Below are positions 23,861 to 41,691 of a stretch of DNA of 55,717 bases, piece by piece. How positions within the stretch are numbered: the first letter of the stretch is position 1; every line of letters begins with the position of its first letter. The notes beneath the pieces were generated by a model that was not told where the DNA came from, made no database searches, and was given only the letters and a program-made list of their open reading frames with translations. Source of the DNA: an uncultured Pelagibacteraceae bacterium (GTDB lineage Bacteria > Pseudomonadota > Alphaproteobacteria > Pelagibacterales > Pelagibacteraceae); contig CACOXL010000003.1 of assembly GCA_902631135.1 (NCBI GenBank), forward strand, positions 1 to 55,717. The letters run 5' to 3'. Position numbers and translations under genes: made by a program.

Positions 23861-24862
23861 TTAATAATCTTTTACAGTTTTTACTAAATAATCCATCATA
23901 TTTGGATCTGTGTCGGGTAAAATACCGTGACCTAAATTAAAGATATAAGGATGGTCTTTGAATATATCTAAATATTTTATAATATTTTTTTTTAAATTAT
24001 TTTTATCTGTCAATAATATTTTTGGATCCAATCCGCCTTGAATAGGTATCTTTATTTCCTTACTAATTTTTATTGGATCTACTTCATAATCAATACAAAT
24101 TGCATCTGGTTTAACAATTTCACAATAATTTTTATAATTCTTTATTCCTTTGGGAAAACATATAACGGGTATTTTTAACGATTTAATATATTCAACTAAG
24201 TTTAGAGTGGGTATAAAAACGAAATTAGGTAAATCTTTTTCATTTAACAATCCTGCCCAACTATCAAAAATTTGTATTATTTCGGCTCCATTATCTATTT
24301 GATTTTTAATATGAACCTTTAAAAATTTTTCTAATATAATTAAAATTCTATTTATTAAAAAATCATCTTTAAAAAAATTATCTTTTAATTTCAACTTGGG
24401 AGATTGTTTATTTATCATATAAACTAAAAGTGTCCAAGGAGCACCGACAAAACCTATTGTAGTTTTGTTTTTAATTAATTTATTTTTACTTACTAAATTT
24501 ATAGCTTTATAAACCGGATAAATTTTCTTAACAAAATCAATTTCATCTAGTTTAGAAACTTCATCTAAATTTAAATCACCTAAAATTGGACCTAAGTTTT
24601 TCTTAAATTCAACCTTTTGATTTAAACCATATGGTAACATTAATATATCTGAAAAAATTATAGCAGCATCTAAATCAAATCTTTTTAATGGTTGAAGTGT
24701 TATTTCAGATGATAATTTTTCATTTAAACATAATTTAATAAAGTCTGGATTATTTTTTCTTATTTCTCTAAATTCAGGTAAATATCTACCCGCTTGTCTC
24801 ATTATCCATACAGGATTGATGTTGTTTTTTTTATTTATTATTACTTCTCTAATTAGTGACAT
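23861..24862 (-). CDS. hemE: Uroporphyrinogen decarboxylase
   Basis: HemE converts uroporphyrinogen III to coproporphyrinogen III. The 333 residues include the invariant VWIMRQAGRYLPEFR near the N-terminus, the conserved IIFSDILMLP with the catalytic Asp, GFVGAPWTLLVYM, and FNLGHGILPDTDP at the end. It is the gene immediately left of the proposed origin, transcribed away from it. It likely heads a hemE-hemH-hemJ operon. Confidence 0.98.
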   Translation of the reverse strand: MSLIREVIINKKNNINPVWIMRQAGRYLPEFREIRKNNPDFIKLCLNEKLSSEITLQPLKRFDLDAAIIFSDILMLPYGLNQKVEFKKNLGPILGDLNLDEVSKLDEIDFVKKIYPVYKAINLVSKNKLIKNKTTIGFVGAPWTLLVYMINKQSPKLKLKDNFFKDDFLINRILIILEKFLKVHIKNQIDNGAEIIQIFDSWAGLLNEKDLPNFVFIPTLNLVEYIKSLKIPVICFPKGIKNYKNYCEIVKPDAICIDYEVDPIKISKEIKIPIQGGLDPKILLTDKNNLKKNIIKYLDIFKDHPYIFNLGHGILPDTDPNMMDYLVKTVKDY

Positions 24863-24904
24863 ATTAATAATTAAATATATTTAGATTGTATTATTAGTGT
24901 AAAT

Positions 24905-24913
24905 TGTGAATAA
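24905..24913 (-). promoter_or_regulatory. DnaA box in oriC
   Basis: TGTGAATAA on the plus strand reads TTATTCACA on the minus strand, an exact match to the general DnaA-box consensus TTATNCACA. It is the only full match I found in this gap. Confidence 0.75.
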
Positions 24914-24948
24914 CGGTGATTATATTTAATAAACATTTTATCAACTTT

Positions 24949-24957
24949 TTATTAACA
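24949..24957 (+). repeat. oriC element TTATTAACA, copy 1
   Basis: This 9-mer differs from the DnaA box TTATTCACA at one base. It starts exactly 52 bases before the next copy, suggesting a helically phased weak DnaA or other initiator site. Confidence 0.55.
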
Positions 24958-25000
24958 TCTAGATCTTTAAATTTATTAAATATATATGAAAAAATGAAGC

Positions 25001-25009
25001 TTATTAACA
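25001..25009 (+). repeat. oriC element TTATTAACA, copy 2
   Basis: This is the second identical 9-mer, in the same orientation as copy 1 and 52 bases downstream of it. Confidence 0.55.
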
Positions 25010-25052
25010 AAACCTTCAAATTTACCTATAATACTATACATTTGGTTAAAAA

Positions 25053-25061
25053 TGTTAATAA
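25053..25061 (-). repeat. oriC element TTATTAACA, copy 3 (inverted)
   Basis: TGTTAATAA on the plus strand is the reverse complement of copies 1 and 2. It again begins exactly 52 bases farther on. Confidence 0.55.
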
Positions 25062-25145
25062 AAATCAAGTTCTACAACATTTATTTAAAAATTTTAAAAT
25101 TATAAAATATGATTTAAATAATAAATAGTTACCAACATTTAATAC

Positions 25146-25970
25146 ATGAGTAATACATATCAAATTTATCTTATTTCTGACTCTACAGGAGAAACTCTTG
25201 ATAGAATTTTTCTTGCTATAAAAGCACAGTTTAAAAATATCGAATATAAAATACACACCTGTTCTTTTACTAGAACAGAAAATCAAATATTTAAAATTTT
25301 ATCTGAAGCGGAAAAAGACTCAAATTCTATAATTTTGTATTCTATAGTGGATAGTAATTTAGCCAAATATCTTGCTAATACTAGTGATGATAAAAAGATT
25401 CCATGTTTTGGAGTTTTAGGAGACTTGATATTGAGTTTTTCTAAACTTTTAAATCAAAAAGCATCACATCAACCAAGTGGACAATATGCTTTGAATGACG
25501 AATATTATAAAAGAATTGAAGCAATACAGTTTACAATGAATCACGATGATGGAAATTTAACTAAAGAGATTGAGAAGTCGGACATTATTTTACTGGGTGT
25601 AAGCAGAACAAGCAAAACTCCAACATCAATTTATCTTGCTAATAAAGGATTTAAGACTTCAAATATTCCTTTGGTTAATGATAAATCAATTCCAGAGGTA
25701 TTAAAAGAAAATCCGCAAATTTCATGTGTTGTTGGTTTGAATACTGAACCAGAAAGACTTGCTGATATTAGAAAAAATAGAATGAACTCACTTAAAGAAA
25801 CAGAAAATAAATCTTATACTGACATTGAAAAAATAAAAAAAGAAGTTGATGAAGCAAAAAAAACATTTAAGAAATATCAATGGCCTTCGATTGACGTTAC
25901 TAGAAAATCAGTGGAAGAAACTGCAGCTTCAGTAATTAAGATATACGAAATATATAAACAAAATGGTTAA
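25146..25970 (+). CDS. ppsR: PPDK/PEP-synthase regulatory kinase-pyrophosphorylase (DUF299)
   Basis: This 274-residue protein belongs to the bifunctional family that inactivates pyruvate-phosphate dikinase or PEP synthase by ADP-dependent phosphorylation and reactivates it by phosphorolysis. The N-terminal SDSTGETLDRI motif and the P-loop GVSRTSKTPTSIYLANKG are diagnostic. Its position just right of oriC and before maf-aroE-coaE-dnaQ matches other alphaproteobacteria. Whether its target is PPDK or PEP synthase cannot be told from the window. It overlaps maf by 8 bases. Confidence 0.93.
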   Translation: MSNTYQIYLISDSTGETLDRIFLAIKAQFKNIEYKIHTCSFTRTENQIFKILSEAEKDSNSIILYSIVDSNLAKYLANTSDDKKIPCFGVLGDLILSFSKLLNQKASHQPSGQYALNDEYYKRIEAIQFTMNHDDGNLTKEIEKSDIILLGVSRTSKTPTSIYLANKGFKTSNIPLVNDKSIPEVLKENPQISCVVGLNTEPERLADIRKNRMNSLKETENKSYTDIEKIKKEVDEAKKTFKKYQWPSIDVTRKSVEETAASVIKIYEIYKQNG

Positions 25971-41616: not shown

Positions 41617-41691
41617 GCGGGCATAGCTCAGTGGTAGAGCGTCTCGTTGCCAACGAGAAGGTCGAGGGTTCGACCCCCTTTGCCCGCTCCA
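41617..41691 (+). tRNA. tRNA-Gly (anticodon GCC)
   Basis: The cloverleaf is complete: acceptor GCGGGCA (41617-41623) pairs with TGCCCGC (41681-41687), D arm GCTCAGTGGTAGAGC, anticodon stem TCTCG/CGAGA with loop TTGCCAA (anticodon GCC at 41649-41651), and T arm GAGGGTTCGACCCCC. The discriminator base is T and CCA is encoded (41689-41691). GCC reads GGC and GGU glycine codons. Confidence 0.98.

Follow-up and report, generated by a model that had tools for sequence, protein, structure and literature searches.

SAR11 bacteria are among the most abundant bacteria in the ocean, and the gap between their divergent genes hemE and ppsR raises the question of whether chromosome replication starts there and by which elements. 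The question was addressed in the window, the whole 55.7-kb stretch of DNA analyzed here, which is one contig of a 650-kb SAR11 assembly (55% complete), and in the corresponding gaps of relatives. The Caulobacter origin, which at the time of PMC1914354 was the sole alphaproteobacterial origin located by experiment, has hemE and COG1806 as its flanks, and Pelagibacter has been reported to have no ctrA (PMC2877005). A literature search returned the SAR11 origin only as a skew-predicted position and no element map; because DoriC and the BUS supplement were outside that search, we do not claim the first prediction of a SAR11 oriC.

The hemE/ppsR gap is very probably the chromosomal origin

Both flanking genes scored above their family cut-offs (hemE, 311 bits against the NCBIfam value of 302.95; ppsR, 304.7 against 225 for the PPDK/PEPS-regulator subfamily), and the gap is the intergenic region between hemE and COG1806 (ppsR) expected of an alphaproteobacterial oriC. 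From SAR11 genomes, 173 such gaps were gathered, 151 of them unique, and of these 133 belong to the genus of the window and 18 to other genera; as some genomes are present in two collections, the main counts are based on unique sequences. Across the family, gap length and DnaA-like boxes are conserved. The length falls between 281 and 283 bases in 81 of the first 108 gaps, beside which the HemE protein is often just 70-80% identical to that of the window, and the boxes hold fixed positions (box1 to C, 43 bases in 108 of 108 aligned gaps; E to F, 76 or 77), a constancy that the alignment itself tends to favor. The coordinates of all elements are collected in Table 1.

Table 1 Features of the hemE/ppsR gap and its flanks in the window. 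Fractions of 133 refer to unique gaps of the window's genus, and mismatches to the motif TTATNMACA.
Feature	Position	Strand	Support
hemE, left flank of the probable origin	23861..24862	-	TIGR01464 above cut-off
DnaA-trio-like repeat TTG TAT TAT TAG TGT, putative unwinding element	24886..24900	+	T-phase conservation
4-base spacer between trios and box1	24901..24904	.	published GC-rich gap averages 4 bases
Box1 TTATTCACA, canonical DnaA box facing the trios	24905..24913	-	≤1 mismatch in 106/133
Tandem box TAATAAACA, degenerate	24927..24935	+	≤1 mismatch in 86/133; 11-base step
Tandem box TTATCAACT, degenerate	24938..24946	+	≤1 mismatch in 102/133, mostly TTATAAACA
Perfect IHF consensus TATCAACTTTTTA, probably chance	24939..24951	+	kept in only 3 aligned gaps
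Tandem box C, TTATTAACA	24949..24957	+	≤1 mismatch in 116/133
Element D, TTATTAACA	25001..25009	+	exact box in 10/133; ≤1 mismatch in 62/133
Apparent further box in relatives, decayed in the window (CTATACATT)	25034..25042	+	≤1 mismatch in 75/133, exact in 21
Box E, TTATTAACA (written TGTTAATAA), best-kept right-hand box	25053..25061	-	≤1 mismatch in 128/133
Box F, TTACCAACA in the window, TTATTAACA in many relatives	25129..25137	+	≤1 mismatch in 110/133
ppsR (COG1806), right flank of the probable origin	25146..25970	+	NF003742 above cut-off

Enrichment of the 9-mer in the gap is real and far above chance. TTATTAACA occurs three times against 0.065 expected, a count reached by none of 5000 dinucleotide shuffles, and nowhere else in the window do two or more TTATNMACA fall within 283 bases. 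Over all 173 gaps this motif averages 3.17 per gap, compared with 0.20 in shuffles, and in the complete relative G012 no part of the 655 kb sampled has a denser box cluster than the hemE/ppsR gap. Matches to the gap sequence elsewhere in genome G000 (C8 and C9) are short and AT-rich.

GC skew, computed on stretches of two complete relatives (G012 and G063), points to the same region. In the 1.343-Mb genome of G012, ppsR lies at 1.262 Mb, inside the minimum basin of the sampled cumulative skew (about 1.225-1.315 Mb), with the maximum near 0.65-0.68 Mb, and the sign pattern of G063 agrees. The low point itself does not coincide with the gap: on a contiguous stretch of G012 its exact position is 1.291 Mb, 29 kb away. 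With a resolution of only about 100 kb in these two relatives, the skew shift fixes the origin to roughly that interval, while box cluster and synteny fix the gap as the site. The dnaA gene does not mark the origin in G012, because it lies at 1.198 Mb and the gap at 1.262 Mb; it was not found in the incomplete 650-kb assembly of the window's own genome.

Because the flanks are those of the Caulobacter and Rickettsia origins (PMC1914354), length and boxes are conserved, the box cluster is the densest in the sampled 655 kb of G012 and the skew basin includes it, we read the gap as very probably oriC, in agreement with the original prediction. The hemE-side synteny is kept even where ppsR is absent. 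The locus is of an ordinary type; it is well conserved, its elements are resolved at base level, and its putatively weakened boxes would plausibly add a twist.

A DnaA-trio-like repeat adjoins box1

The best-conserved feature of the gap, absent from the original prediction, is a trinucleotide repeat next to box1. Box1 itself had been recorded correctly as a single TTATNCACA box, that is, TTATTCACA at 24905-24913 (-). With bases numbered from box1 in the direction of hemE, the genus gaps have T at -19, -16, -13, -10 and -7 with frequencies of 0.88-0.99 and A at -15, -9 and -6 with frequencies above 0.9; all five phase T are present in 112 of the 133 unique gaps, and the phase is also visible, less strictly, in the 18 gaps of other genera. 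Just three of the five window trios, which are consecutive, have a middle A, and one in 300 shuffles attained the trio-plus-box score of the window alone. Box E itself accounts for most of a second T-phase run at 25047.

The five T-first trinucleotides and the 4-base spacer abutting box1 are arranged like a DnaA-trio/BUS unwinding element, and trio phase and spacer fit the published BUS search rules (PMC8287927). Under these rules, which allow up to two mismatches to the standard box motif, TTATTCACA has one mismatch to TTATCCACA; the spacer, which may have up to 16 bases, measures 7 when the TGT trio is counted into it, and the three 3'-NAN-5' trios required as a minimum follow with the expected polarity (TAT TAT TAG).

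The trio-plus-box pattern was matched in 29 of 101 genomes searched. Among 18 matching genomes in which ppsR was searched, 17 have the match at the ppsR gap, and in the remaining one (G038) no ppsR was located. In the sister family, L276 carries TAGTAGTAGTAGTTG upstream of hemE, with maf as neighbor instead of ppsR. Among 26 further hemE upstream regions, taken from the sister family and from other alphaproteobacteria, only a few scored clearly for trios (L276, L286, L296), and we therefore make no class-wide claim; the trios of L273 and L275 are textbook by eye, yet score no better than shuffles.

To the right of box1, at 24914-24921, lies a conserved TGGTGATTA-like block, with G nearly invariant at +10 and AT at +14/+15; it does not resemble a DnaA box.

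TTATTAACA is probably a DnaA box weakened at position 6

Boxes were scored as TTATNMACA, exact or with at most one mismatch, at each position of the 133 unique genus gaps; the median control position scored 0 and the top-scoring one, with 75 of 133, was 25034 (+). The tandem boxes are weak boxes 2 bases apart, as in an E. coli-type array, and exact left-hand boxes in relatives are spaced only 11 or 22 apart. These 11-base steps, too, were absent from the original prediction.

Changes within boxes were counted as parsimony minima on a FastTree tree of ppsR and hemE. Position 6 of box1 switches between the canonical C and A at least 8 times, TTATTCACA and TTATTAACA thus interchanging at one site; in box E, base 6 changes at least 8 times, and base 5, where the DnaA consensus TTATnCACA allows any nucleotide, changes at least 11 times. 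Domain IV of SAR11 DnaA retains intact RPRQ and NRDHTT motifs, which we take to correspond to E. coli Arg399 and residues 433-436. In DnaA, Arg399 and the helix 434-451 read the box (PMC5742627). Because of the C/A interchange on the tree and the intact recognition motifs, the most fitting reading of TTATTAACA is that of a DnaA box in which a C-to-A change at position 6 has weakened the site, and no new kind of site, which supports its earlier description as a weak DnaA-like site; its affinity for DnaA would presumably be lower. An altered specificity of DnaA was rejected because the recognition motifs are intact (the motif reads NRDHTT, compared with GGRDHTT). The recurrent C/A switch is a natural experiment on the drift of DnaA boxes in an AT-rich genome.

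Promoter, coding and exact-array readings

It appears improbable to us that the gap is an ordinary divergent hemE/ppsR promoter region whose 9-mers bind a transcription regulator, or DnaA as one, with the origin elsewhere. The two genes do diverge, DnaA has a known regulatory role in Caulobacter (PMC4468827), and promoter-like matches exist, among them an 11/12 match overlapping D with a -35-like TTAACA and a TATAAT 17 bases on. Such matches are, however, only moderately above shuffles (10 versus 5.9, s.d. 2.5), TATAAT is not the consensus at that place beside D, and the box cluster, trios, skew basin and hemE-side synteny without ppsR suit an origin better. The period-3 T pattern at 24886-24900 might also be taken for coding DNA, where such a period is typical, and for an N-terminal extension of HemE in place of a DnaA-trio element, the more so as two minus-strand frames are open through the stretch in about 127 of 173 gaps. 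We reject this reading as extremely improbable, because in most species the hemE frame has a stop between the ATG and the stretch (81 of 173 gaps at offset 19 alone); the pattern, moreover, stops at box1 with a fixed spacer, like BUS elements.

A different organization of the origin had been proposed originally, namely an exact 52-base phased array of TTATTAACA together with IHF. The reported starts at 24949 (+), 25001 (+) and 25053 (-) and both spacings of 52 are exact in the window, where the direct pair at this spacing is the single one in the 650-kb assembly, and among the 133 unique genus gaps C and D are 52 bases apart in 92 and D and E in 59. Both spacings are 52 in just 50, however, exact D boxes are as rare as Table 1 indicates, the spacing is off by a base in many relatives and whole-turn indels occur between box1 and E; by a rough estimate, equal spacing of three sites by itself would arise by chance in about 1-2% of cases, which is not very rare. 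Genes for IHF-alpha-like and IHF-beta-like proteins are present in the genome and the consensus at 24939 is indeed perfect, but its poor conservation counts against a functional site, and we regard an origin organized in this manner as very improbable. What is defensible is a rough helical phasing of the left cluster to box E, with no exact 52-base ruler. Distances from box1 to E lie near whole helical turns (126-127, 136-138, 146-149 and 157-158), with 143 and 114 as off-phase exceptions, and the three main distance classes show only four changes from one class to another; over the distinct distances outside the main classes the phasing has a chance probability of about 0.002, distances within a clade being non-independent.

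A different perfect IHF consensus is found in 15 relatives (for example L074 and L085), all sharing one pattern, at gap position ~103 between boxes C and D; the window is without it. CtrA or CcrM sites were also sought in the gap, which contains no TTAA-N7-TTAA and no GANTC. Both IHF and CtrA sites are optional in the published criteria for such origins.

Proposed mechanism and comparison with known origins

From sequence, synteny, conservation, box interchange and skew taken together, we consider it highly likely that the gap is the chromosomal origin, with DnaA acting on box1 and weaker boxes and opening occurring at the trios beside hemE. DnaA would bind box1 (TTATTCACA) and, to the right of it, the weaker TTATNAACA boxes, and would pass from box1 onto the adjoining plus-strand trinucleotide repeat, where a DnaA filament on the trios could capture single-stranded DNA and open the duplex on the hemE side. 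Collection and positioning of DnaA would be aided by the tandem boxes, spaced in 11-base steps, and by the more remote boxes E and F; a DNA loop would bring box E to the left cluster on about the same face of the helix. More tentatively, the SAR11 origin may be built mostly on boxes weakened at position 6, with a near-consensus box only beside the unwinding element, and be timed by DnaA level and helical phasing alone. If so, origin control in SAR11, which is reported to lack CtrA, would be pared down, unlike that of the CtrA-gated Caulobacter origin. With the elements mapped (trios, box1, the 11-base boxes, E and F), binding, unwinding and replication-profile work has exact targets, and growth estimates based on metagenome read depth can be anchored at base level.

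The Caulobacter crescentus Cori has the same flanking genes and likewise uses weakened DnaA boxes, the G- and W-boxes (PMC1914354, PMC4468827), although the change there is T to G and in the SAR11 gap C6 to A. Cori further contains five CtrA sites and an IHF site, whereas the SAR11 gap has no CtrA motif and no conserved IHF site. With the BUS of Bacillus subtilis and many other bacteria (PMC8287927) the gap shares a box, a short spacer and a T-A-N run in the expected polarity, but the putative SAR11 trios are mostly TAT/TTG/TAG with no pure TAG run. Escherichia coli oriC also places a high-affinity-type box beside the unwinding side, and its weak sites 2 bases apart have the same 11-base step as the SAR11 tandem boxes (PMC6727663); the latter, however, number at most three and point away from box1, and conserved IHF site and neighboring genes are not shared. 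Rickettsia, Wolbachia and Ehrlichia likewise have hemE-side origins in AT-rich alphaproteobacterial genomes (PMC1914354), but their entries are longer (385-620 bases) and most include predicted CtrA and IHF sites (PMC1914354).

Further observations

Around D, a block at 24990-25009 (consensus AAATTGAAGCTTATTA) is conserved in the clade of the window, with stronger conservation in its left half than in the box itself; it might serve as a -35-like element. Between 46000 and 51000 the window shows raised G+C, up to 0.38 against mostly 0.22-0.33 elsewhere; an Rfam search yielded no rRNA there, and the only tRNA lies at 41617-41688. In the sister family f2 (L272-L278), no ppsR match was found in the genomes examined, and hemE and maf face each other across a gap that contains trio-like repeats; the f2 origin seems to have lost its right neighbor and retained the hemE side.
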